Positions 7,174 to 45,210 of a stretch of 64,000 bases of DNA are shown here, in pieces. Numbering within the stretch: position 1 is the stretch's first letter; the number at the start of each line of letters is the position of its first letter. This stretch comes from Burkholderiaceae bacterium. GTDB lineage: Bacteria > Pseudomonadota > Gammaproteobacteria > Burkholderiales > Burkholderiaceae_C. The DNA is taken from contig JAGOPK010000004.1 in the NCBI GenBank assembly GCA_017992055.1, positions 300,165 through 364,164 of the forward strand. The letters are read 5' to 3'. Below the pieces are notes generated by a model. That model was not told where the DNA came from. It saw only the letters and a list, made by a program, of their open reading frames with translations, and searched no databases. The translations under genes were made by a program, and so were the position numbers.

Positions 7174-8676
7174 ATGACCCCCATGCGATCCCTGCTGGCC
7201 CTTCCCCTGGCCGCCCTGCTGTCCCTGGCCGGCGACCCGTCGTTCGCCGCCGAGCCGCCGGCCGACCTGGCCAGCCTGGTGCAGCGCCTGGGCGACGAGG
7301 ACCCCTATCTGCGCGGCGCAGCGGCGGTGGCCCTGGGCCGCATCGGCGAGGCCGCGGTGCCGGCGCTCACCCAGGCCCTGGGCAGTGACAACGCCGCCCA
7401 GCGCGCCTCGGCCGCCATTGCGCTGGGCCGGCTGGGGGCGCCGGCCGTGCAGGCGCTACCGCAGCTGATCCGCCTGCTGTCCGATGCCAGCGACACGGTG
7501 CGGCAGGTGGCCGCGGTCACACTCGGCGGACTGGGCGCGGCGGCGCAATCGGCGGCGCCGGACCTGACACGCTGCCTGAGCGACCGCGACGCGGCCGTGC
7601 GCCGCAGCGCCACCCAGGCACTGGCCCGCGTGGCGCCGGCCGACCGCGCCCTGCAGCTGCGCCATGAGGCCCTGGTCGCCACGCTGGACAGGCTGGTGCC
7701 CGGCCTGCTGGCCGAGCACCGCGTGCCGGGCCTGGCCATCGCACTGATCCGCGACCGCCGGCTGGTCTGGTCCAAGGGCTATGGCCAGCGCGCCGCGGGC
7801 TCGGACCAGGCCGTGACCCCGGACACCGTGTTCGAGGCCGCGTCGATGAGCAAGCCCATCCTCGCCCTGCTGGCCATGCAGCTGGTGGACGGCGGGCGGC
7901 TGGACCTGGACCGCCCGGTGGTGGACTACGGCCCCGAGCTGCTGGTGCCCGACCAGGCCGAGAAGCGCCGGGTGACGGCGCGCATGCTGCTGGCCCACAC
8001 CTCGGGCTATCCCAACTGGCGCCCCGGTGGCGAGGAGATCGAAGGGCCGCTGCCGCTGCTGTTTGCGCCGGGCTCGCGCTTCGGCTATTCGGGCGAGGGC
8101 AGCTTCTACCTGCAGCGGCGCATCGAGTGGATCAGCGGCCTGCCGCTGGACCGGCTGGCGCAGCAGCGATTGTTCGGGCCGCTGGGCCTGCAGCGCAGCG
8201 ACTTCGGCTGGACGCCGCAGATCGGCGCGCACCAGGCCACCGGCCATGGCCCGGACGGCCGGCCGCGGCCCCGGTCGCGCTACCTGCATCCCAACGGCGC
8301 CTACACGCTCTACACCAGCGTCGACGACTATGCGCGCCTGTTGGTGGAGGTGCTGCAGGCCGAGCGGGGCGAATCGCGGCTGCTGTCGCGGGCGGCGGCG
8401 CAGCAGATGCTGCAGCCCCAGGTGGCGGTGGGCGGCCGCGATCCCATCGAGCGGCCCGGCGACGCCCAGGGCCAGGCGGTGTTCTGGGGCCTGGGCTGGT
8501 CGATCAACCGCACGGCCCAGGGCGACATCGCCCACCACAGCGGCGCCAACCGCACCGGCTTCCGCAGCTTCTCGCAGTTTTCGCCGTCGCGCGGCAGCGG
8601 CCTGGTGATCCTGACCAATGGCGCCGATGGCGACGAGCTGTGGGCGCGGCTGGTGGCGGCCATCGGCGACCTCTGA
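7174..8676 (+). CDS. exported HEAT-repeat/beta-lactamase-fold serine hydrolase fusion
   Basis: A two-domain protein of about 500 residues. After a signal peptide (MRSLLALPLAALLSLAG...FAA) come three or four HEAT/PBS-lyase-like repeats (residues about 30-150, e.g. DPYLRGAAAVALGRIGEAAVP). A class C beta-lactamase/DD-peptidase-like domain follows. The SxxK nucleophile motif is ASMSKP (Ser 224, Lys 227), the Tyr motif is GYSGEG and the third motif is HHSGAN. The start at 7174 is preferred to 7138, which would put 12 polar residues ahead of the signal peptide; ATG 7183 is also possible. Periplasmic esterase or peptidase activity is likely; the substrate is unknown. Confidence 0.8.
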   Translation: MTPMRSLLALPLAALLSLAGDPSFAAEPPADLASLVQRLGDEDPYLRGAAAVALGRIGEAAVPALTQALGSDNAAQRASAAIALGRLGAPAVQALPQLIRLLSDASDTVRQVAAVTLGGLGAAAQSAAPDLTRCLSDRDAAVRRSATQALARVAPADRALQLRHEALVATLDRLVPGLLAEHRVPGLAIALIRDRRLVWSKGYGQRAAGSDQAVTPDTVFEAASMSKPILALLAMQLVDGGRLDLDRPVVDYGPELLVPDQAEKRRVTARMLLAHTSGYPNWRPGGEEIEGPLPLLFAPGSRFGYSGEGSFYLQRRIEWISGLPLDRLAQQRLFGPLGLQRSDFGWTPQIGAHQATGHGPDGRPRPRSRYLHPNGAYTLYTSVDDYARLLVEVLQAERGESRLLSRAAAQQMLQPQVAVGGRDPIERPGDAQGQAVFWGLGWSINRTAQGDIAHHSGANRTGFRSFSQFSPSRGSGLVILTNGADGDELWARLVAAIGDL

Positions 8677-8772
8677 TGCGGCTTCGTCGGCTGCCCGACA
8701 GTCGGCCCCGGGGTGCCGCCCGCACACTGCGCCACCCCACAACAGCCAACAACCAAGCATCGGAGACCGACC

Positions 8773-9336
8773 ATGAGCCCGCTGATCCAGGCCCTGTCCA
8801 GCTATGCCGACTACCACCGCGACCGCCGCAACATCGCCACCCACCTGGTCGGCATCCCGATGATCGTGGCCGGCGTGGCGGTGCTGCTGTCGCGGCCGCA
8901 GCTGGCCCATCTTGGGGCGGTGGCGCTGTCGCCGGCGCTGCTGCTGGCCGCGGCCTGCGGCGCCTGGTATCTGCGGCATGACCTGCGCTACGGCCTGGTG
9001 ATGGCCGTGCTGCTGGCCGCCGTGCTGGCCCTGGGCCAGGCCGCAGCCGCCTGGTCGCTGGCCGCCTGGGGCGCGCTGGGTGGCGGCCTGTTCGTGGCCG
9101 GCTGGATCATCCAGTTCATCGGCCATGCCTTCGAGGGCCGCAAGCCGGCCTTCGTCGACGACCTGATGGGCCTGGTGATCGGCCCGCTGTTCGTGGTGGC
9201 CGAGGTCGGCTTTGCGCTGGGCCTGCGCCGCGAGGTGCAGCAGGCGGTGGAAGTGCACAGCGGCCCGGTGCGTGATCACCGTGAGGGCCATGATGGCCGC
9301 TCCCCGCTGGCCGGCGCCAACGGAGGCCGCGCATGA
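8773..9336 (+). CDS. Mpo1-like (DUF962) membrane protein
   Basis: A 187-residue integral membrane protein. The start SYADYHRDRRNIATHLVGIP and the later WIIQFIGHAFEGRKPA carry the conserved histidines of the Mpo1/YGL010w family. In yeast that family is an Fe-dependent 2-hydroxy fatty acid dioxygenase of the ER; bacterial members are less studied. Four hydrophobic segments are visible. The ATG at 8773 follows CGGAGA, and the upstream extension to 8713 is not supported. The stop overlaps the start of the next gene (ATGA), implying coupling. Confidence 0.82.
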   Translation: MSPLIQALSSYADYHRDRRNIATHLVGIPMIVAGVAVLLSRPQLAHLGAVALSPALLLAAACGAWYLRHDLRYGLVMAVLLAAVLALGQAAAAWSLAAWGALGGGLFVAGWIIQFIGHAFEGRKPAFVDDLMGLVIGPLFVVAEVGFALGLRREVQQAVEVHSGPVRDHREGHDGRSPLAGANGGRA

Positions 9337-9911
9337 GCATGCCGGCCAGGCGCGGTCGCGGTCGCCGCCGCCTGCTGCTGGCGGCCGGTGGCGCGCTGGC
9401 CGTCGGGGCGGTGGGCGGTGCCGGCCTGGCGCTGGGCGGCCGCCGGCCCGCGCTGCTGCTGGGCTCGCTGGACCAGGCCGAGGCGGCGCTGGCGCGGCTG
9501 GGCACGCTGGCGGCCGAAGCCGCACCCCCCGGCGCCGACTGGAGCCACCACCGCGGCGCCACGCTGGCCCATCTGGCGCAGAGCATCGAGTATTCGATGC
9601 AAGGCTTTCCGCAGCCCAAGCCGCTGCTGTTCCAGCGCACGCTGGGCGCGGCGGCGTTTGCCGTGTTCAGCGCCCGCGGCCACATGAGCCACGATCTTTC
9701 GGCGCCGATCCCCGGTGCCACGGCGCTGGATGCGGCCCTGCCACTGGATGCCGGCCTGCAGCGGCTGCGCCAGGCGATCGGCGCCTTCCGCGGCTGGACC
9801 GGCCCGCTGCAGCCGCACTTTGCCTATGGCACGCTGGACCGTGCGGCCTACGAGCGCGCCCATGCGATGCACATCGCCGAGCACCTGGGCGCCTGGGGCT
9901 TGAGCGGCTGA
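9333..9911 (+). CDS. DUF1569 (DinB-like) protein
   Basis: A 192-residue protein with a basic N-terminus and one hydrophobic segment (residues about 13-33), which could be a Tat-like signal or an anchor. The body shows WSHHRGATLAHLAQSIEYSM and GFPQPKPLLFQRTLG, the conserved features of DUF1569, a member of the DinB/YfiT four-helix superfamily. Histidines in these motifs suggest a metal site. CGGAGG precedes the start, which overlaps the stop of the Mpo1-like gene. The function is unknown. Confidence 0.75.
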   Translation: MSMPARRGRGRRRLLLAAGGALAVGAVGGAGLALGGRRPALLLGSLDQAEAALARLGTLAAEAAPPGADWSHHRGATLAHLAQSIEYSMQGFPQPKPLLFQRTLGAAAFAVFSARGHMSHDLSAPIPGATALDAALPLDAGLQRLRQAIGAFRGWTGPLQPHFAYGTLDRAAYERAHAMHIAEHLGAWGLSG

Positions 9912-9922
9912 CCGGCGGCTGG

Positions 9923-9940
9923 AGCCGCGGCGCGGCTTTC
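9923..9940. terminator. hairpin between convergent genes
   Basis: AGCCGCG and CGCGGCT flank a single base and are followed on the plus strand by TTTC. It lies between the DUF1569 gene and the convergent ferredoxin gene. It is a possible short terminator with a weak T-run. Confidence 0.3.
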
Positions 9941-10262
9941 AGTCCAGCGCCACCCACACCCGCCCGCCCTGCACACGCACCGGATGGCAGCGCAGCGGCT
10001 CGGTCAGCGGCGCGCACTGCGGCTGGCCGTCGCGGATGTCGAAGCGGCCCTGGTGCAGCGGGCATTCGATCTCGTGGCCCAGCAGAAAGCCCTCGCACAG
10101 CCGCGCATCGCCATGGGTGCAGCGGTTGTCGGTGGCGAACACCTCGCCGTCCACGCGGTACAGGGCCAGCTCGCCGCGGCCATCGGGACGCGGCCAGGCC
10201 AGCACCTCGTCGGCACGCAGCTGGTCTTCGGCCAGGGCATCGGTCCATTGCAGGTCGCTCAT
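9939..10262 (-). CDS. Rieske [2Fe-2S] ferredoxin of ring-hydroxylating oxygenase
   Basis: A 107-residue electron carrier for the adjacent oxygenase. The Rieske ligands are visible as CTH (Cys48, His50) and CPLH (Cys67, His70). The ATG at 10262 gives the normal ferredoxin length; the frame upstream is open but meaningless. It is the third gene of the minus-strand alpha-beta-ferredoxin operon, 14 bases after the beta subunit. No NAD(P)H:ferredoxin reductase gene is next to it, so the reductase must come from elsewhere. Confidence 0.9.
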   Translation of the reverse strand: MSDLQWTDALAEDQLRADEVLAWPRPDGRGELALYRVDGEVFATDNRCTHGDARLCEGFLLGHEIECPLHQGRFDIRDGQPQCAPLTEPLRCHPVRVQGGRVWVALD

Positions 10263-10276
10263 GTTGAAGCCTGGGT

Positions 10277-10747
10277 TCAGATCGGGTAGATGATGGAGTT
10301 GGGGATCATCTCGCTGTCGTAGATGACCTCGCGGCGCACAAAGCGCAGGCCTTCGGGTGTGCGCTGCAGCAGGTCCAGGTAGCGGCCGACGTTGAACACC
10401 GTGCTCGGCTCGGACAGCTTGGTGCGGAACACCGCGTAATGGCATTCGCAGCCGATCTGCGTGCCATCGTCGTGCAGCAGCCGCGGCAGACCGAGCACAT
10501 GGCGCTGGTAGTAGGGATCGTGGAACAGCGTCTCGCGGATGCCGTAGACCCGGTCTTCCATCATCGCCCGGCTGTCGAAGGCCAGCGTGGCCAGCGGCAG
10601 GCCACGCTCGTGGTTCTCGCGCGGCACCAGGCGGTAGACGCCATGGTCGACGAAGAAGCCCGGCCAGGCCTCCCAGTCGCCGGCGTCCAGCGCCGCGGCC
10701 ACCGTGGCCTGGAACTGCACCACGTCGAACAGCGTGGCGGCGTTCAT
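10277..10747 (-). CDS. aromatic-ring-hydroxylating oxygenase, beta (small) subunit
   Basis: The 156-residue small subunit, with the NTF2-like cone fold of this family. LVPRENHERGLPLATLAFDS and YYQRHVLGLPRLL resemble the small subunits of salicylate 5-hydroxylase and AndAcd-type anthranilate dioxygenase. It has no catalytic role of its own and builds the alpha3beta3 hexamer. Its start overlaps the alpha-subunit stop (ATGA), giving 1:1 coupled synthesis. Confidence 0.88.
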   Translation of the reverse strand: MNAATLFDVVQFQATVAAALDAGDWEAWPGFFVDHGVYRLVPRENHERGLPLATLAFDSRAMMEDRVYGIRETLFHDPYYQRHVLGLPRLLHDDGTQIGCECHYAVFRTKLSEPSTVFNVGRYLDLLQRTPEGLRFVRREVIYDSEMIPNSIIYPI

Positions 10748-12033
10748 GCCGGGTCCTCCATCACCTCGCGCCAGTAGCGGTACATGCCGCGGATCAGGGT
10801 CTCGCTGACCATGTGCTCCGTGTCGCCCACGCCCTGGCCGCCCAGCTCGGCCAGGCAGTCGCCGCCGGGCGTGCTGTCGAAGGCCTGCTGCGAGAACTCG
10901 ATCACCTCGCCGTCATCGGCCGAGACAAAGCCGGCCGGGCCGAACAGATTGGCCTGGCGCAGCCGGCGCTCGCTCATCTCGGGCGTGTCGTCGTCGAAGC
11001 CGAAGTGGGTCCAGACGAAGTCGAATTCGCCCGGCCCGCGCGGCTGGATGTGGCGGGTGGAGACGCTGTTGACCTGCTGCTGCAGGATCACGCTGGGGAA
11101 GATGGTGGTCATCACCGCCGTCGGCCCGCCCCACCAGGGCTCGGGCACGATGTCCAGGAAGCGCGGGTCCTTCAGCTGCATGCCGGCCTTGAAGCTGGAC
11201 ACGGCGGTGACCCCGGCCGCCGCGGCGGGCGCTGCCGCCGGATCGCCGCGGGTGGAGATCATCGCCGCATGGCGGTGGCGCGCATCCATGCGCAGCTGCG
11301 AGCGGTTGTCGGCCCGCCACAGGCCGAAGGTGACGAACCAGGTGTGCAGCAGGCCCGGGTGGTAGGGGTCCTTGATGTTCTCCTGCATCAGCTTCCAGTT
11401 GCCCGGGATGCGCTGGCGGTTGTAGCCCAAGAGGCGCAGCCCGCGGCCGTTGAACAGCCGGTCGAACCAGCGCAGGATCTCCGGGCCCAGATAGTCTTCC
11501 AGCGGCTCGACGCCATGGTCGAAGCTGGCGAAGACCACGCCACCGCGGCTGGCCACGCGCAGCCGCGTCAGCCCATGCTCGGCGGGCTGGAAATCGGCCG
11601 GCATGCCGCCCTGCCACTGGCCGTCCTGGCGCACGCCGCGGCGCAGCGGCACGCCCTGCAGATCACCCTTCAGGCTGTAGTTCCACTGGTGGTAGGGGCA
11701 GGTGAAATCCTTGCGGTTGCCATGGCGCTCGCGGCAGAAGCGCATGCCGCGGTGGGCGCAGACGTTTTCCACCACGCTCAGGCTGCCGTCTGCGCAGCGC
11801 GCCAGGATCACCGAGCGCTCGCCGATCAGCGTGCGCTTGAAGTCGCCGGGCTGCGGCACCTCGGCCTCCAGGCCCACATAACACCAGTGGCCGCGGTAGA
11901 AGAAGCGCTGCAGCTCGCGGCGGTAGAGGTCGTCGCGGGTGTAGGCCTCGAACGGGATGCGGTGCGTGGCGGCCGCGCCGGCACCGGCGTCGGCAGGCCA
12001 GGACAGCGGGGCAGGGCAGGGGCTGGGTGTCAT
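10744..12033 (-). CDS. Rieske non-haem iron oxygenase alpha subunit (salicylate 5-hydroxylase/anthranilate dioxygenase-like)
   Basis: The catalytic 429-residue subunit. It has a Rieske centre at Cys92/His94 and Cys112/His115 (CAHRGMRFC...CPYHQW). The mononuclear iron site is DPYHPGLLHTW, with Asp222 as electron bridge and His225/His230 as ligands. The segment after it (FVTFGLWRADNRSQLRMD) and HRHAAMISTRG are characteristic of the NagG/AndAc branch acting on ortho-substituted benzoates. Salicylate to gentisate, or anthranilate to catechol, are the candidate reactions; the sequence alone does not decide. A LysR regulator is divergent, as in nag/nah loci. Confidence 0.88.
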   Translation of the reverse strand: MTPSPCPAPLSWPADAGAGAAATHRIPFEAYTRDDLYRRELQRFFYRGHWCYVGLEAEVPQPGDFKRTLIGERSVILARCADGSLSVVENVCAHRGMRFCRERHGNRKDFTCPYHQWNYSLKGDLQGVPLRRGVRQDGQWQGGMPADFQPAEHGLTRLRVASRGGVVFASFDHGVEPLEDYLGPEILRWFDRLFNGRGLRLLGYNRQRIPGNWKLMQENIKDPYHPGLLHTWFVTFGLWRADNRSQLRMDARHRHAAMISTRGDPAAAPAAAAGVTAVSSFKAGMQLKDPRFLDIVPEPWWGGPTAVMTTIFPSVILQQQVNSVSTRHIQPRGPGEFDFVWTHFGFDDDTPEMSERRLRQANLFGPAGFVSADDGEVIEFSQQAFDSTPGGDCLAELGGQGVGDTEHMVSETLIRGMYRYWREVMEDPA

Positions 12034-37723: not shown

Positions 37724-39499
37724 TCAGAAGCTGGTCCAGTCGTCATCGTCGGCCGGCGTGCTGGCCGCGCTGGCCGTGGCCGCCGGCTTGGCAGCCGGCT
37801 TGATTGCCGGCTGCGCAGGCCGGGGCGCAGGCGTGGCGCTGGCCACCGGCTTGGCCGGCGCGGGACGGGGCTTGGCCGGCACCGCGGCCACCGCAGCGGC
37901 CGGCTTGGCCACCGGCTTGGCCGGCACAGCAGCAGGCGCCGGCTTGGCCTCGCGGCCCTCCAGCGTGAAGAAGGCCACCGCCTGCGACAGCTGGCCGGCC
38001 TGCACGCGCAGGCTCTCGGCGGCGGCCGCACTTTCTTCCACCAGGGCCGCGTTCTGCTGCGTCACCTGGTCCATCTGGGCCACGGCATCGCCGACCTGGC
38101 CGATGCCGCTGGTCTGCTCGGCGCTGGCGGCGCTGATCTCCGAGATCAGGTCGTTGACACGCCGCACCTGGGTCACGATCTCGGCCATGGTCTGGCCGGC
38201 ATCGCCGACCAGGTGGGTGCCGACCTCGACCTTCTCGACGCTGGCGCCGATCAGGCTCTTGATCTCCTTGGCCGCCTCGGCGCTGCGCTGGGCCAGGTTG
38301 CGCACCTCGCCGGCCACCACCGCAAAGCCGCGGCCCTGCTCGCCGGCGCGGGCAGCCTCCACCGCGGCATTCAGCGCCAGGATGTTGGTCTGGAAGGCGA
38401 TGCCGTCGATGGTGCCGATGATGTCGGCGATCTTCTTCGAGCTGGCGCTGATGTCCTGCATGGTCTGCACCACGCGGCCCATCACCTCGCCGCCCTGGGC
38501 GGCCACACCGGCGGCGCTGCCGGCCAGCTGGGCCGCCTGCTGGGCGGTGTCGGAGTTCTGCTTGACGGTGGCCGTCAGCTGCTCCATCGAGGCCGCGGTC
38601 TGCTGCAGGTTGCTGGCCTGTTCTTCGGTGCGCTGGCTCAGGTCGATGTTGCCCTGGGCGATCTGGCTGCTGGCCGTGGCCACGCTGTCGGCATTGCCGC
38701 GCACGCTGCCGACGATGCGCAGCAGCTCGCCGTTCATGCGCTGCAGCGCGCCCAGCAGCTGCGCCGCCTCGTCGCCGCCGCTGACGGTGATGCGGCTGCG
38801 CAGGTCACCACGGGCCACGGTCTCGGCCACCGCCACCGCCTGGCGGATCGGCACGACGATGGAGCGGGTGATCAGCCAGGCCAGCAGGCCGCCGGCGGCC
38901 AGCGCCGCCAACAGCAGGCCGCCGACCATCAAGCGCGTCTGGTTGAACGAGGCCTGGGCCTCGGCATAGGCCTGGTCCGAGCCACGGACCTGGAAGTCCA
39001 TCAGCTTCTGCACCGCGGCCAGCACCTCGGCAAAGGCCTTGCGGCCGTCGCCCTGGTAGGTCGACTGGGCATCCGGCGAGCCCTCGCGCGACTGCGCCAG
39101 CACGCGCTTTTGCACCTCCACATAGGTCTTGCGCGCGGCCAGGGCCGCATCGGCCAGCTTGCGCTCCTCGTCGGTGGTGACGGTGGCCATGTACTGCTTC
39201 CAGTCCACGCCCATCGCCGCCGTGGCCTTGGCGATGCCGTCTTCCTCGGCCTTGCGCTGGGCATCGGTGGCCGACATCAGGTGATTGGCCTCGAAGCGGC
39301 GCTCGTCGACCAGCTGGCCCCGCACCTGGCCCAGCAGGCGGATCGACGGCAGCCAGTTGGTGGCGATCTCGGCGGTGTTGGCATTGACCGCGCCCAGCCG
39401 GTTGATGGCCAGCAGGCCGATGCCCAGGGTCAGCATCAGCACCGCGGCAAAGCCCAGCGCCAGGCGAGCGCCGATGCGCAACTGGTTGATTTGAATCAT
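37724..39499 (-). CDS. methyl-accepting chemotaxis protein
   Basis: A 591-residue chemoreceptor. Helix TM1 is at residues about 11-30, a periplasmic four-helix-bundle domain follows to about 190, then TM2 ([19 protein letters not shown]), a HAMP domain and the signalling domain with the hairpin tip [20 protein letters not shown]. After it comes a 90-residue Ala/Pro/Lys linker ending DDDDWTSF, a CheR/CheB-docking pentapeptide on a flexible tether. The ligand is unknown. It is probably cotranscribed with the globin-coupled cyclase. Confidence 0.93.
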
Positions 39500-39694: not shown

Positions 39695-40138
39695 ATGCCA
39701 CGCCTGCAATTCACCGGCCCCGAGCCGGCGCTGTTCGAAACCGACATCCAGATCTACATCAGCCACGTCAACCAGGGCGGTCACCTGGACCATGCGCAGC
39801 TGATGACCCTGGCCTCCGAGGCGCGGCTGCGCTTCTTCCAGTGGTTGGGCTACCGCGAGTCGACGGTGGAGGGCTGCGCCATCGTCGTCGCCGACATCGG
39901 TGCGCAGTACATGTCCGAGGGCTTCCACGGCGAGGTCATGCGCGTGTCCCTGGCGCCGGCCGACTTCAACCGCTACGGCTTCGACCTGCAGTTCCGCATG
40001 GACGAGAAGACCAGCGGCCGGCCGGTGGCCCGGGGCAAGACCGGCATCGTGTTCATCGATCCGGCCACGCGGCGCCCGGCGGCCGTGCCGCCGGCCTTCA
40101 TGGCGCGGATTCAGGCACGGCAGTCGCCGGCTTCCTGA
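39695..40138 (+). CDS. hotdog-fold acyl-CoA thioesterase
   Basis: A 147-residue single hotdog domain of the 4HBT/FadM type (SHVNQGGHLDHAQLMTLASE, FFQWLGYRE, RGKTGIVFID). It is expected to hydrolyse acyl-CoA thioesters in the cytosol. ATG 39695 starts MPRLQFTG; the frame extends 25 codons upstream with no ribosome site. It converges on the wax ester synthase gene and overlaps its 3' end by 41 bases, which puts a thioesterase beside the neutral-lipid operon. Confidence 0.82.
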   Translation: MPRLQFTGPEPALFETDIQIYISHVNQGGHLDHAQLMTLASEARLRFFQWLGYRESTVEGCAIVVADIGAQYMSEGFHGEVMRVSLAPADFNRYGFDLQFRMDEKTSGRPVARGKTGIVFIDPATRRPAAVPPAFMARIQARQSPAS

Positions 40139-41657
40139 GCCGCGGCGCCTTCTTGGCTGCCGTTTTGGCCGCTGTTGCGAGCGTCTTTTTCGCCGCCGCC
40201 CGGCGCGGCTTGGGCAGCAGCGCCGCCTCCAGCTCCTCCAGCGCCTCGCTGGCGTACACGGCCAGCTTCTGCAGGCTGGGCAGCGAGCTGTGGCAGCCGG
40301 TGAAGCCGAAGCACATCGCGCCGGCATAGCTCTGGCACGTGATGTTCAGCGCCTGGCCATGGGTGACGATGGACGCCGGATAGGCCGCCACCAGCTCGGC
40401 GCCGCGGAAGTACAGCGGCTTGTCCGGCCCCGGCACGTTGGAGATGGTGATGTTGAACATCGGCCGCGTGCGCCCGCCGATGCCCGACAGCAGGGTCAGG
40501 ATGGTCGGCGCCATCAGCAGCACGGTGTACTGCAGCATGGCCTGGCGCGGCAGGCCCTGCACATGGGCCTTGGCATGCTGGACCGAGGCCTTGACGGCCT
40601 TCAGCCGCTGCTCCGGCCCGGCGATGTCGGTGCCCAGCGTGGCGACGATGAAGCTGATGGCATTGCCGGCCTCGGCGCCATCGTCGGCGGCATTGGCATC
40701 GGCAGCCGGCCGAGGCCGCACCGACACCGGGATGCCGGCGGTCAGCGGCTTGGTGGGCAGCTCGCCGCGCTCGTCCAGAAAGCGCCGCAGCGCGCCGCCG
40801 CACAGCGCCAGCACCACGTCGTTGAGCGTGCACTGTGCGGCCGTGGCCACGGCGCGCAGGCGGGCGATGTCGAACTGCTGGGTGGCAAAGCGGCGCTTCT
40901 CGCGCACGCGGCCGTTCAGCACCGACAGCGGCGCGTCGAAGGGCAGGGCCATGCCCTCGTTGCGGTCGCCGATGCGCTGCACCATCTTGCCGAAGGCCGA
41001 CAGCAGGGTGGGGATGGAGCGCGCCTGGCTGCTCAGTGCCTGGGCCGCCTGGGCCATGGCATTGGCCACCGTGGGCGCGGTGGCGCCGCGCTCGGCCCGT
41101 GCGCTGCGCGTGGCCGCGGCCTGGCCGCTGGCCCAGAACGGCGGCAGGGCCAGGCTCTTGTCGCGGTCGGCCGACATCGCGCGCTGCAGCAGGCGCATGG
41201 CGCTGACGCCGTCGATCAGCGAGTGGTGGATCTTGATGAACAGCGCAAAGCGCCCGCCGTCCAGGCCTTCGATCAGCGTGCATTCCCAGGGCGGACGGGC
41301 CAGGTCGATGGGCGTGCTCTGCAGCCGGCCGATCAGCTCGCCCAGCTCACGCTCGCCGCCGGGCCAGGGCAGGGCGGCATGGCGCACGTGGTACTCGAGG
41401 TCGATCTCGGCATCGGTGGTCTCCAGCCACTCGGGCAGCGGATGCTTGCTCAGCGCATGGCGCAGCCGCCGGTTCCATGGTGCGCTGAAGCTGCGGTGGC
41501 TGCGGAACTCGTCCATCAGGTCGCGCATGAAGCTGCGCGGCGCGCCCTCGGGCAGGCGGAACTGCAGCAGCCCGCCCACATGGTTGGGCGTGGCCCGCGA
41601 CTCGGTCAGCAGCCAGGCCGCGTCCAGCGGGTTCAGGCGCAGGCCGGCGCCGCTCAT
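40098..41657 (-). CDS. wax ester synthase/diacylglycerol acyltransferase with Lys/Ala-rich tail
   Basis: A 519-residue acyltransferase of the WS/DGAT family, which esterifies fatty alcohols or diacylglycerol with acyl-CoA at the membrane to make neutral-lipid droplets. The catalytic HHxxxDG motif is HHSLIDG (144-150); LNPLDAAWLLTES at the N-terminus and ITISNVPGPD (403-412) are family landmarks. Residues 482-519 form a basic tail (RRAAAKKTLATAAKTAAKKAP) not part of the fold. Its start overlaps the reductase stop (ATGA), and it is the last gene of a coupled three-gene operon. Confidence 0.92.
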   Translation of the reverse strand: MSGAGLRLNPLDAAWLLTESRATPNHVGGLLQFRLPEGAPRSFMRDLMDEFRSHRSFSAPWNRRLRHALSKHPLPEWLETTDAEIDLEYHVRHAALPWPGGERELGELIGRLQSTPIDLARPPWECTLIEGLDGGRFALFIKIHHSLIDGVSAMRLLQRAMSADRDKSLALPPFWASGQAAATRSARAERGATAPTVANAMAQAAQALSSQARSIPTLLSAFGKMVQRIGDRNEGMALPFDAPLSVLNGRVREKRRFATQQFDIARLRAVATAAQCTLNDVVLALCGGALRRFLDERGELPTKPLTAGIPVSVRPRPAADANAADDGAEAGNAISFIVATLGTDIAGPEQRLKAVKASVQHAKAHVQGLPRQAMLQYTVLLMAPTILTLLSGIGGRTRPMFNITISNVPGPDKPLYFRGAELVAAYPASIVTHGQALNITCQSYAGAMCFGFTGCHSSLPSLQKLAVYASEALEELEAALLPKPRRAAAKKTLATAAKTAAKKAPRLRKPATAVPESAP

Positions 41658-43861
41658 GCGGCCTCGGTGCTGCGGCTTGCCTTCTTGGCCGGGGCCTTCG
41701 CCGGGGCCTTGCGCGCCACTGCCTTCTTGGCCGGCGCGGCCTTCTTGGCGGGCACGGCCTTCTTGGCCGCCACCTTCTTGGCCGCCACCTTCTTGACCGC
41801 CGTCTTCTTCACCGCCGCGGTGCTGCCGCCCTTCCAGGTCTTGCGCGCCTTCTTCGCCAGGGCCACCACCGCGGCAATGTCCTCGTCGCTGTACATGCCC
41901 TTGACGCCGGAGATCGCGGCCAGCTTCATGCCGTGCTTCAGGCCCAGCTTGTAGATCTCCTTGACCTTCTCCCACTCGGTGTCGCGGCCGATGGTGAAGA
42001 CCTCGAAGCGGCCCTCCAGCGCCAGCACGATGGTCTCGGCCAGGCAGGCGTAGATCACGTTCGGCGGCAGGCCGATGCTCTTCATGCCGCGCACCTTGGT
42101 CGGCAGCTCGATCTCGCCCGATTCGATCACCAGCACGTCGGGCCGCTTGGCCACCTGGTCGGGCGGCAGGTCCAGCGGCCGCGCCACGTCGGTGATCACG
42201 CAGCCGGGCTTGACCTTCATGATGTCCAGGATCTTCTTGCCGGCCCCCGAGGTGCTGGTGACGATCATGTCCATGTCGCCGAGCAGGCTGTCGTAGTCGG
42301 TGCTGCACACCACGTCGGCATCGGGCGTGTCCAGCAGGATCGAGGCCTTCAGCTCCTCCAGCTTCTTCAGGTCGCGCCCGGCGATCACCACCTGCTGGAA
42401 GGCCATGGCCAGCAGCCGCGCACTGACCGAGCCGATGGAACCGGTGGCGCCGATGACCATGGTCTTGGCCTGCACCCGCTGGCCCTTGGGCGGCACCGGC
42501 ACCAGGCCCATGCGGCGCATCGCATCGTGGGCGGCCCACAGCGCGCCCGAGGCGCTGTAGCTGTTGCCGGTGGTGATGGGCAGGCGCGAGCGCCGCGCCA
42601 CCGTGACGCCGGCATCGCCCACCACCTTGGTGAAGGCGCCCAGGCCCATGATCTGCGCGCCCAGCTTCTCGGCGATCTTGGCCGCATGCAGCAGGCGGCG
42701 GTAGGTGAACTCGGGGCTGCGCGCCAGCATCTCGCGCGGCGTGCCGCCCACGCTGATCAGCCAGCCCTCGGCCTCGGCCCCGGCCGGCGAGACGATGTTC
42801 TCCATCTTGCAGTACACCATCGGCGGCAAATGGGCGGCGATGGTCTCCACCTTGTCCATCACGAACTGCGGCGTGCCCTTGGGGATGGGGAAGCCCTTGC
42901 GGATGAAGTCCTGGCTCAGCGGGTGGATCACAAACGCGAAGCGCCGGATGTTGCGGAACTGGCCGGTGGGGTGCAGCAATCGCGGCGCGATCTTCAGCTC
43001 GTCCAGGATCTCGGTGAAGTCGTCGTCCGACACCTCCTCGCTGGGCTTGCCGAGTGCGGCCAGGATCATGGCCTCCAGCGTATTGACGCCGACCACGCGG
43101 TCGAACAGCTTGGGGCTGACGTCGATCACCAGGTTGACCTTGCAGGCCTTGAAGAAGGCCAGGCGCTCGTCGTCGACGGCCGAGGTGATCAGGGTCTTGC
43201 CGGCCAGGTTGTCGGCACTGCCCACCGCCTTGATCTCGGCAAAGGTGCCGACCACCACATGCGACTTGGCCACCGCCGCGGCGATGCGCTTACCCTTGAA
43301 GCCCGACAGCGCCGACTCCAGCACCTCGGCCGGCTTGCCCGACAGCACCCAGTCGCTGCCCTTGGCAAACAGCTCCAGCTGTTCCAGCGAGCTCAGCAGG
43401 GCCGGCGCGCCGGTCTGGAACAGCGCATCGGCGAACTGCAGATTGGGCGTGTAGTCCGACAGGGCCACGGCCATGTCGTAGTTGCGCATGCCGTTCAGGA
43501 ACAGCACCAGGTTGTTGTTGAAGTAGTTGCCCAGCTCATGCTGCACCTGGCGCACCGCGCGCACCTGCAGCAGCCGGCGCAGCGTGGCGCCGGTGGTGGC
43601 CGGCACGCGCGTGACCACGTTGAGCAATCGCTTGGTTTCCTTGTTGACCACGGTGCGCAGGCCCACCTGGTAGTGGTCGCCAATCTCGCCCAGGCCGATG
43701 GCATCGGCCGTGGCCTGGTGGCGGCGCATCAGCTCCCAGGCCTTGCCGGTGTCGTCGTCGGCGCCCAGGCGCTTGACCTGGAAGCGCTGGCCGAGGAAAT
43801 CGGTCTCGAAGGAAAAGTCCTGCTTCGACGCGCCCAGCGTCACCGTCACTACCTTCTTCAT
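41654..43861 (-). CDS. acyl-ACP/CoA reductase-like protein with long N-terminal domain and PAKKA tail
   Basis: A 735-residue protein. Residues about 350-650 resemble the aldehyde-forming acyl-ACP reductases of cyanobacteria: GLGAFTKVV and TTGNSYSASGA precede a Rossmann motif VIGATGSIGS (469-478), and Cys554 in KPGCVITDV falls where the catalytic Cys is expected. The first 350 residues are an unassigned domain, making the protein about twice the usual length. Residues 679-735 are a Lys/Ala/Pro repeat tail (VAAKKAVPAKKAAPAKKA). Between an alcohol dehydrogenase and a wax ester synthase, it most likely makes fatty aldehyde. Start and stop overlap both neighbours. Confidence 0.75.
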   Translation of the reverse strand: MKKVVTVTLGASKQDFSFETDFLGQRFQVKRLGADDDTGKAWELMRRHQATADAIGLGEIGDHYQVGLRTVVNKETKRLLNVVTRVPATTGATLRRLLQVRAVRQVQHELGNYFNNNLVLFLNGMRNYDMAVALSDYTPNLQFADALFQTGAPALLSSLEQLELFAKGSDWVLSGKPAEVLESALSGFKGKRIAAAVAKSHVVVGTFAEIKAVGSADNLAGKTLITSAVDDERLAFFKACKVNLVIDVSPKLFDRVVGVNTLEAMILAALGKPSEEVSDDDFTEILDELKIAPRLLHPTGQFRNIRRFAFVIHPLSQDFIRKGFPIPKGTPQFVMDKVETIAAHLPPMVYCKMENIVSPAGAEAEGWLISVGGTPREMLARSPEFTYRRLLHAAKIAEKLGAQIMGLGAFTKVVGDAGVTVARRSRLPITTGNSYSASGALWAAHDAMRRMGLVPVPPKGQRVQAKTMVIGATGSIGSVSARLLAMAFQQVVIAGRDLKKLEELKASILLDTPDADVVCSTDYDSLLGDMDMIVTSTSGAGKKILDIMKVKPGCVITDVARPLDLPPDQVAKRPDVLVIESGEIELPTKVRGMKSIGLPPNVIYACLAETIVLALEGRFEVFTIGRDTEWEKVKEIYKLGLKHGMKLAAISGVKGMYSDEDIAAVVALAKKARKTWKGGSTAAVKKTAVKKVAAKKVAAKKAVPAKKAAPAKKAVARKAPAKAPAKKASRSTEAA

Positions 43862-45210
43862 GCCTGGGTCTCCGTGGGGTTCTTCTTGCGGGATGGGGTG
43901 GCGGCCTTGCGCGCCGGCTTCTTGGCGGCGGCCTTGGCGGCAGGCTTGGCGGCGGCCTTCGCGGCGGCCTTGGCCGGCGCTTCCACCGGCGGCAGCAGGC
44001 GGCGGATCAGCGCCTCGCACTGCTCCTGGCTCATGTAGCGGGGCACCGGATAGCCGGTATGGGCCTCGTGGCAGGCGGCGGCGGCCAGGGCCGGGATGTC
44101 CTCGGCCTTCAGCGCCGCCAGGTGGGTGGGAATGCCCAGGTCGGCGTTCAGCGCCTCGATGGCATCGAGAAAAGCCTCGGCCAGCGCATCCTCGTCGTCG
44201 CCGGGCCGGCCGACCTTGGCTCGCAGCGCCAGCTGGGCCAGGCGGGGCACGATGGCTGGCGCCGAATAGCGCAGCACATGCGGCAGCACCATGGCATTGG
44301 CCAGGCCGTGCGGCGTGTGGTATTTGCCGCCGAACTGGTGGGCGATGGCATGCACATAGCCGACGTTGGCCCGTGTGAAGGCCAGGCCGGCATAGGTGGA
44401 GGCCAGCGCCATGCTCTCGCGCGCGCCGACATTGCCGCCGTCGCGGTAGCAGGTGCGCAGGTTGGCAAAGATCATCGCCACCGCCGACAGCGCCAGACCA
44501 TCGGTGTAGGGCGTGGCCCATTGGCCGACGAAGGCCTCGACCGCATGCGTCAGCGCGTCGATGCCGGTGGCCGCGGTCACCGCCGGCGGCAGGCCGGTCA
44601 TCAGCAGCGGATCGAGTGCGGCCATGCGCGGCACCAGGCGCGGATCGACGATCACCACCTTGGTCTCGCGCTCGGGGTCGGCGATGACCGCGGCCACCGT
44701 GACCTCGGAGCCGGTGCCGGCGGTGGTGGGCACGGCATACACGGTCAGCGGAGAGCAGCGGCCCTTCAGGTAGCCGGCCAGCGAGCGCAGCGGCCGCGGA
44801 TTGGCCATGGCCATGGCAATCGCCTTGGCCGCATCCATGGACGAGCCGCCACCGACGGCCACCAGGGCGTCGCATTCGTGCTGTTTGCAAAAGGCGATGC
44901 CACGCTCGATCAGCGGGATCGGCGCATCGGGCGTGATCTGGTCGAACACCACGAACTCGGTGCCGCCGGCGGTCAGGGCCTCGCACAGCGGGTTCAGCAG
45001 GCCCAGCTTGGCCACCACCGCGTCGGTGACGATCAGCACGCGCTGGTGGCCGAAACCGGCCACGGCCTCGCCGAGCCGGCGGCTGCTGCCCGGGCCGACC
45101 AGCAGCGTGGGCTGCGGGATCGGGATGTAGCGCGTGAGCTTGCCGGCGCCTTTCATCAAGGCCCCCAGGCCGGCGGCGCGGGTCGCTTCAGGAATCAGGT
45201 CCAGGATCAC
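43858..45210 (-). CDS. iron-containing alcohol dehydrogenase with Lys/Ala-rich tail
   Basis: A 450-residue group III alcohol dehydrogenase. NAD(P) binding is by GGGSSMD (120-126), and the metal ligands Asp218, His222, His287 and His301 have exactly the family spacing. It should interconvert long-chain aldehyde and alcohol. Residues 411-450 form a basic, Ala-rich extension (KAAAKAAAKPAAKAAAKKPA) absent from ordinary members. First gene of the wax-ester operon, coupled to the reductase by ATGA. The MarR-family gene lies upstream on the same strand, with a 112-base gap that should hold the promoter. Confidence 0.92.
   Translation of the reverse strand: MILDLIPEATRAAGLGALMKGAGKLTRYIPIPQPTLLVGPGSSRRLGEAVAGFGHQRVLIVTDAVVAKLGLLNPLCEALTAGGTEFVVFDQITPDAPIPLIERGIAFCKQHECDALVAVGGGSSMDAAKAIAMAMANPRPLRSLAGYLKGRCSPLTVYAVPTTAGTGSEVTVAAVIADPERETKVVIVDPRLVPRMAALDPLLMTGLPPAVTAATGIDALTHAVEAFVGQWATPYTDGLALSAVAMIFANLRTCYRDGGNVGARESMALASTYAGLAFTRANVGYVHAIAHQFGGKYHTPHGLANAMVLPHVLRYSAPAIVPRLAQLALRAKVGRPGDDEDALAEAFLDAIEALNADLGIPTHLAALKAEDIPALAAAACHEAHTGYPVPRYMSQEQCEALIRRLLPPVEAPAKAAAKAAAKPAAKAAAKKPARKAATPSRKKNPTETQA

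Follow-up and report, generated by a model that had tools for sequence, protein, structure and literature searches.

The subject of this analysis is a window of 64,000 nucleotides from a Burkholderiaceae bacterium (contig JAGOPK010000004.1), the minus strand of which carries three consecutive genes, in the order iron-dependent alcohol dehydrogenase (Fe-ADH, or ADH), acyl-acyl carrier protein (ACP) reductase-like enzyme and wax ester synthase/diacylglycerol acyltransferase (WS/DGAT), whose products all end in a histone H1-like tail of lysine, alanine and proline. It is proposed, with a probability of a little over one half (about 0.55), that these genes form a translationally coupled wax-ester operon and that the tails tether the enzymes and phasin-coated inclusions, most probably to nucleoid DNA. 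A broader proposal, which is put forward tentatively and at somewhat less than even odds, is that the tails are a pathway-wide address: the three enzymes, further WS/DGATs and a PF05597 phasin would bear interchangeable tails, and the chromosome would act as scaffold and partitioner of a storage-lipid metabolon in beta-proteobacteria and some relatives.

Both gene junctions are 4-base overlaps of stop and start, and a purine-rich stretch lies ahead of the start of the ADH gene. The ADH carries the conserved His/Asp stretches of its class in addition to its Pfam matches (Table 1) and aligns with 3owo (Alcohol dehydrogenase 2) through DALTHA, YVHAxAHQ and PHG stretches, which presumably hold the metal ligands. 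The WS/DGAT scores 452.5 bits against the NCBIfam model of its class (cut-off 309.95), and its HHSLIDG, which we take to be the active-site HHxxxDG motif, falls in the stretch aligned with 7nxg. A scan for promoters found nothing promoter-like, and terminator-like sites were fewer here than in shuffles. The coordinates, strand and gene identities given for all three enzymes in a preliminary description of this DNA hold.

The reductase required a closer description. Residues ~345-675 give a weak AAR/PigE match in Pfam/NCBIfam, with residues 350-646 matching PigE (4ppm, E 2.8e-25) and residues 345-651 matching the cyanobacterial acyl-ACP reductase AAR (6jzq, E 6.5e-14). Cys606, invariant in 29 aligned sequences, sits under the cysteine of both PigE and AAR (within a CFAE stretch in AAR); from the title of 6jzz (C294S), the aligned AAR residue is presumably C294. 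An AlphaFold2 model built with 29 sequences has a mean pLDDT of 77.8, falling below 50 for residues 680-735, and in a Foldseek search with this model AAR ranked first (6jzq, E 1.1e-17, TMt 0.72), so that the protein has both the fold and the catalytic cysteine expected of an AAR. Residues 1-340 returned nothing at E 0.001 in Pfam and NCBIfam, that half having been neither searched nor folded on its own, and a plasmid search gave partial matches to the AAR/PigE-like part only, in 16 records. The earlier label, acyl reductase-like, stands as far as the AAR-like match goes and is corrected here in that the enzyme has diverged from AAR and has an additional N-terminal half. A second copy of the reductase (57% identical) is present on contig C10 of this genome (L007:8555-10714), ends in a short basic stretch and has neither an ADH nor a WS/DGAT gene within the 20 kb examined; a paralogue of this type also occurs in an Acidobacteria locus (L079:1736-3853).

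The tails, 39-58 residues long and starting at about residues 408, 678 and 481, are PVEAPAKAAAKAAAKPAAKAAAKKPARKAATPSRKKNPTETQA in the ADH, GGSTAAVKKTAVKKVAAKKVAAKKAVPAKKAAPAKKAVARKAPAKAPAKKASRSTEAA in the reductase and LPKPRRAAAKKTLATAAKTAAKKAPRLRKPATAVPESAP in the WS/DGAT. All are C-terminal Lys/Ala/Pro tails with AAKKP/PAKKA-like motifs, of the type found in PhaF, AlgP and MLDS, and they are predicted to be disordered, by composition in all three and by the structural model in the reductase. A census covering 1,259,153 bp (21% of the genome), with genes from a simple codon-usage caller, found that an H1-like tail criterion was passed by only 7/1036 genes of at least 100 residues. Three of these encode the operon enzymes; the other four are the C10 reductase paralogue, a PF05597 phasin on contig C30, H-NS and one borderline case. 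A second criterion, applied to genes of at least 150 residues, was passed by 12/943, the operon trio included, and lysine makes up 2.2% of residues in the sample. The tails reported for all three enzymes are thus confirmed and are more than chance, and a general habit of the genome is rejected as their explanation given their rarity in this sample. It had also been suggested that the tails were added independently or spread between the genes. Spread by recent DNA copying is rejected, the longest shared stretches being 10-13 bases, inside the range of synonymous-codon shuffles, while older copying is compatible with these data.

Elsewhere in this genome, two other Fe-ADHs were found, both tailless, and two other WS/DGATs, one tailless and one with a weakly basic end of 99 residues, rich in Ala and differently composed, which passes the charge criterion. 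The latter is on contig C2 (L119:8959-10689), with an abhydrolase gene coming after it. The former belongs to a second neutral-lipid cluster on contig C28 (L120:7868-10023), together with a PF09650 PHA_gran_rgn protein ending in KGKRPAKK and an acyl-CoA-binding protein.

The conservation of the tails was assessed in relatives. When named genomes were scanned with the reductase, 240 relatives were obtained; the best 80 loci among them were used, mostly from Burkholderiales and Rhodocyclales, with a few gamma-proteobacteria, two Acidobacteriota and one Desulfobacterales (names are record titles, and many records are metagenome-assembled genomes, MAGs). Tail counts take only proteins with complete C-termini, genes outside the operon trio come from a simple caller, and the locus and genome counts given here and below come from related species and are therefore not independent. 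With these definitions, tails are present on 73/76 reductases, 69/73 ADHs and 11/13 of the best in-locus WS/DGATs, the two WS/DGATs without one being distant Acidobacteriota sequences (31 and 33% identical). The ADH and reductase are both tailed in 65/69 loci where both are complete, all three enzymes are tailed in 9/10 loci where all three are complete, the tenth having the distant WS/DGAT of 33% identity, and where a close WS/DGAT adjoins the ADH and reductase all three are tailed in 9/9. Orthologous operons consistently lacking tails on two of the three enzymes, named beforehand as the outcome that would count against a shared tag, are not the pattern seen. When one common criterion is applied to all genes, it is passed by 65/73 ADHs, 70/76 reductases and 9/13 WS/DGATs, and by 6/444 other genes of the loci, two of which are a helix-turn-helix (HTH) gene beside the ADH.

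The median net charge of the tails is +17 in the reductase, +7 in the ADH and +10 in the WS/DGAT. Pooled, lysine makes up 0.81 of Lys plus Arg in reductase tails and 0.66 in ADH tails, against a background of 0.42 over every gene called in the loci, and the excess of lysine in these two is hence not a product of genome composition; composition as the cause of the tails is inconsistent with these shares, though the WS/DGAT tails lie at background. Three reductases are tailless (two gamma-proteobacterial, one Desulfobacterales), and in a quick, midpoint-rooted reductase tree they branch at the base of the orthologue group. The fewest tail changes on this tree is two; a single origin is nevertheless compatible with it, and short basic ends occur in a distant group of paralogues too. 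Since the tail is retained while its sequence drifts, the comparison suggests that it is functional.

In 55/80 loci the stretch examined contains no WS/DGAT, some stretches being short, and the gene is then elsewhere in the genome. Whole genomes carrying the reductase were for this reason searched, and a WS/DGAT was found in 50/50 of those tested (of the 80) compared with 42/300 sampled genomes of this order, a comparison in which the first set mixes orders and MAGs and the control is unmatched for lineage. Within the order sample the full reductase occurs in three genomes only, this one included, all three having a WS/DGAT. The wax-ester assignment gains support from this co-occurrence. For 30 of these 50 genomes the best-scoring WS/DGAT was read, and it carries a basic tail in 28/30 cases.

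The phasin on contig C30 matches PF05597 at 154 bits (cut-off 28.8), is tailed, is followed by a patatin gene and lies on a different contig from the WS/DGATs and polyhydroxyalkanoate (PHA) synthases. In the same 300-genome sample, PF05597 was found in 48/300 genomes (46 over cut-off): in 42/42 genomes with a WS/DGAT and in 6/258 others, these six comprising a MAG that is 84% complete, two matches below threshold and a further three. The Fisher value for this link is 3e-45, inflated by relatedness; among the genomes listed, eight families (f1, f3, f4, f6, f8, f10, f11, f49) hold both states, and no case of a WS/DGAT without the phasin was seen among the twelve families tabulated. The phasin gene lies within 10 kb of a WS/DGAT gene in 25/42 genomes. 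PHA synthase was found in 203/300 genomes, including all 48 with PF05597, and PF05597 occurs in 6/161 genomes with a PHA synthase and no WS/DGAT. Phasins are tailed in 16/16 cases in the loci and in 56/58 complete ones elsewhere. Among the reductase genomes, 44/50 have PF05597 (43 over cut-off) and the six without it all have a WS/DGAT, so the link is imperfect outside the order sample. Given that PF05597 tracks the WS/DGAT rather than PHA synthase, its most likely role is to coat the wax-ester/triacylglycerol inclusion, and these data suggest that in this order it belongs with neutral-lipid inclusions and not with PHA granules; this in turn supports the inclusion proposed in the preliminary description. 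In the open-licence literature, the nearest remark found concerns a single phasin gene that shares its scaffold with a WS/DGAT and is read there as PHA metabolism (PMC10351704).

Taken together, a mechanism can be proposed in which the reactions are assigned because of family knowledge. The AAR-like reductase would take a fatty acid activated as acyl-ACP or acyl-CoA to the aldehyde through an acyl-Cys606 intermediate, the Fe-ADH would reduce the aldehyde to the alcohol, and the WS/DGAT would join the alcohol and acyl-CoA to give a wax ester. The Lys/Ala/Pro tails would stand outside catalysis as a low-specificity electrostatic address, keeping the enzymes and phasin-coated inclusions together on one polyanion, which is most probably nucleoid DNA, such that the poorly soluble aldehyde and alcohol could be transferred locally and the inclusions would be distributed, and inherited, along with the chromosome. 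Gene content, conserved active-site residues, the tails with their conservation and the co-occurrences are observed; we infer the reactions, the translational coupling, DNA as the ligand, co-localisation and inheritance; binding of DNA by the tails, in particular, is argued by analogy with MLDS, AlgP/PhaF and HbhA. If true, a whole pathway of unrelated enzymes sharing one tether would represent a simple, transferable bacterial targeting code for an organelle-like metabolon.

Several observations weigh against this proposal. The WS/DGAT tails are less lysine-rich than the others, their pooled share of 0.42 being equal to the background. Of the five ADHs that neighbour gamma-proteobacterial reductases, four are tailless (L081, L084, L085 and L086, 50-53% identical) and the fifth (L077) has a tail of 13 residues, and the C28 WS/DGAT of this genome is tailless as well, from which it follows that the reactions can run without a tail. 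As a control, the WS/DGATs of 20 of the 39 genomes of the order that have a WS/DGAT and no reductase were inspected, and a tail was present in 11 and absent in 9; the tail is therefore a trait of this order's neutral-lipid proteins, neither confined to the operon nor universal. The unmatched control tempers the 50/50 co-occurrence. The reductase reaches 64.4 bits against TIGR04058 (long-chain acyl-ACP reductase), far under its cut-off of 449.7, so that its substrate assignment is tentative, and no data on DNA binding, localisation or lipids were found for these enzymes.

WS/DGAT substrates are membrane or droplet lipids, and this raises the possibility that the tails bind not DNA but anionic phospholipids at the surface of the inclusion or of the inner membrane, as an electrostatic anchor for enzymes with hydrophobic substrates. 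The composition of the tails alone would fit any polyanion, and although such an anchor is considered unlikely, it is made a serious rival by the Lys-rich C-terminus of mycobacterial HBHA, which, according to the available portion of that study, is required for lipid binding and inclusion formation (PMC6176652). However, H-NS is among the other tailed proteins of the genome sample and PAKKA is a DNA-binding motif in MLDS. Furthermore, the tails are almost without aromatic or large hydrophobic residues, which typical membrane-inserting basic helices do have. The same tails might instead bind another polyanion, such as polyphosphate (polyP) or RNA, or phase-separate with it, giving a condensate metabolon with no tether to the nucleoid. 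In accordance with this, the tails are of low complexity, that of the reductase is unstructured in the model, and AlgP, with its KPAA tail, is located on polyP granules in the account available (PMC9239181). This is judged improbable, given that none of the recurring neighbours identified (phasin, patatin, abhydrolase, TetR, GMC oxidoreductase and WS/DGAT) gives a hint of polyP, polyphosphate kinase genes not having been searched for.

Two further explanations concern the inclusion and the origin of the tails. PF05597 is named for PHA granules, there are two PHA synthase matches in this genome, and every phasin genome of the sample has a PHA synthase, all of which would fit a PHA phasin and an operon that feeds or decorates PHA granules. 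This is highly improbable given that, among the 203 genomes with a PHA synthase, the phasin follows the WS/DGAT (42/42 with, 6/161 without), and given its proximity to the WS/DGAT gene in more than half of the genomes that have both. Alternatively, the tails could be neutral low-complexity expansions produced by 3'-end slippage in a genome rich in GC. In favour of this, the tandem units of 12-18 bases in the reductase and ADH tails and the range of tail lengths among ADH and reductase orthologues (13 to 145 residues) may be cited. Nevertheless, basic charge is kept despite sequence drift in 142/149 of the ADH and reductase orthologues that are complete, which come from Burkholderiales, Rhodocyclales, some gamma-proteobacteria and Acidobacteriota, the pooled lysine share is far above background, such ends are found on very few other genes of the loci, and both ADH paralogues elsewhere in this genome are tailless, making slippage alone scarcely credible. 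Tethering of a wax-ester pathway, most probably to nucleoid DNA, is the reading favoured here.

Gene neighbourhoods were compared among the relatives. In the Rhodocyclales locus L059 the ADH and reductase genes are followed by a tailed PF05597 phasin, a patatin, a TetR gene, a TPR-like protein and, on the opposite strand, a WS/DGAT of a second kind; members of the same gene clusters are found again in as many as 13 other loci of Rhodocyclales type, and 9/10 of these second-kind WS/DGATs pass the common tail criterion. In the two Comamonas loci, L029 and L031, the region upstream of the three-gene operon holds a tailed phasin, an abhydrolase and an HTH gene that is likewise tailed. The HTH regulator directly precedes the ADH gene in L029:3867-4607, L031:3888-4625 and L036:3797-4459, with HTH_31 in the two that were scanned; its tail is basic Lys/Ala in both Comamonas loci and the L036 copy has no such tail. 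In Variovorax L014, phasin, patatin-cluster and TetR-cluster genes lie ahead of the ADH and reductase, and the WS/DGAT behind them is tailless; genes resembling those of the C28 cluster also lie together in this locus (~8259-11124, by eye). A GMC-type oxidoreductase gene, which might be guessed to encode a long-chain alcohol oxidase, lies near the operon in 12/80 loci, these being of Rhodocyclales type, e.g. L058:384-1988. Within the window itself, a thioesterase-like gene (PF13279, 39620-40138, plus strand) is convergent with the WS/DGAT gene, their 3' ends overlapping by 41 bases within the WS/DGAT tail region, and a protein resembling a chemotaxis receptor by eye (37724-39499, minus strand) has a long Pro/Ala/Lys-rich stretch before a C-terminal WTSF and failed the tail criteria.

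Table 1. Features of the tailed wax-ester gene trio, with positions in the window
Feature	Position	Strand	Remarks
Fe-dependent alcohol dehydrogenase (putative fatty-aldehyde reductase)	43858..45210	-	450 aa, GTG start; PF00465 and PF25137 over cut-off
H1-like Lys/Ala/Pro tail of ADH, residues 408-450	43861..43989	-	
Stop/start overlap ADH/reductase, 4 bases	43858..43861	-	
Acyl-ACP-reductase-like (AAR/PigE) enzyme, putative aldehyde-forming acyl reductase	41654..43861	-	735 aa; extra N-terminal half, residues 1 to ~340
Cys606 codon of reductase	42044..42046	-	aligned with Cys of AAR and PigE, C-x-AE stretch
H1-like tail of reductase, residues 678-735	41657..41830	-	three exact PAKKA motifs
Stop/start overlap reductase/WS/DGAT, 4 bases	41654..41657	-	
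WS/DGAT (wax ester synthase/diacylglycerol acyltransferase)	40098..41657	-	519 aa; TIGR02946
HHxxxDG motif of WS/DGAT, HHSLIDG, residues 144-150	41208..41228	-	
H1-like tail of WS/DGAT, residues 481-519	40101..40217	-	

Comparison with known enzymes indicates that the reductase resembles cyanobacterial AAR (6jzq) and PigE (4ppm) in the sequence and fold of its C-terminal half and in the cysteine of the C-x-AE stretch, and differs from them in its N-terminal half of ~340 residues, its H1-like tail and its sub-cut-off TIGR04058 score. As in the Acr1, FarA, AcrB and FcrA wax-ester pathways, in so far as these are covered in the available part of the source, the acyl group would be reduced to an alcohol and then passed to a WS/DGAT (PMC11948995). 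Unlike in those pathways, the reductase here resembles AAR, and reduction of the aldehyde, a step that the same paper calls unknown for the Acr1 route, could fall to a dedicated Fe-ADH (PMC11948995). An AAR plus an Fe-ADH is thus a candidate for the way in which fatty alcohol is supplied to wax-ester synthesis.

It is known that a single protein can tether storage granules, neutral-lipid droplets among them; the difference here is the tag on a whole pathway. The PAKKA C-terminus of MLDS from Rhodococcus binds DNA without sequence preference and brings DNA to droplets, changes of Lys to Glu abolishing binding (PMC5504291, available in part); KPAA-type tails of AlgP and PhaF bear on the placement of polyP and PHA granules (PMC9239181, likewise in part), and HbhA binds DNA through an AKKA-bearing C-terminus, according to the section of that paper at hand (PMC10665949). 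Given that MLDS already represents a neutral-lipid tether in Actinobacteria, the principle itself is not new, which qualifies the earlier proposal; no account of a pathway with all its catalytic enzymes carrying a tether was found in the open-licence literature searched. The granule-binding structural domain that precedes the tail in PhaF, AlgP and MLDS is absent from the three proteins, which are enzymes, and a PF05597 domain occurs in the C30 phasin only. As in PhaF and AlgP of Pseudomonas, a C-terminal Lys/Ala/Pro tail thought to link storage granule and nucleoid is present, and a tailed PF05597 phasin is found here too; however, there one structural granule protein is tailed and here three catalytic enzymes of one pathway, and the phasin here goes with the WS/DGAT and not with PHA synthase alone, which suggests that the PF05597 phasins of this order serve neutral-lipid inclusions rather than PHA granules. 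The likeness to MLDS, TadA and HBHA of Actinobacteria lies in a neutral-lipid inclusion protein with a PAKKA-type C-terminus, DNA binding having been shown for MLDS and HbhA, whereas those proteins are structural, and the enzymes of their pathways are not described as tagged in the parts of these sources available (PMC5504291, PMC10665949, PMC6176652).

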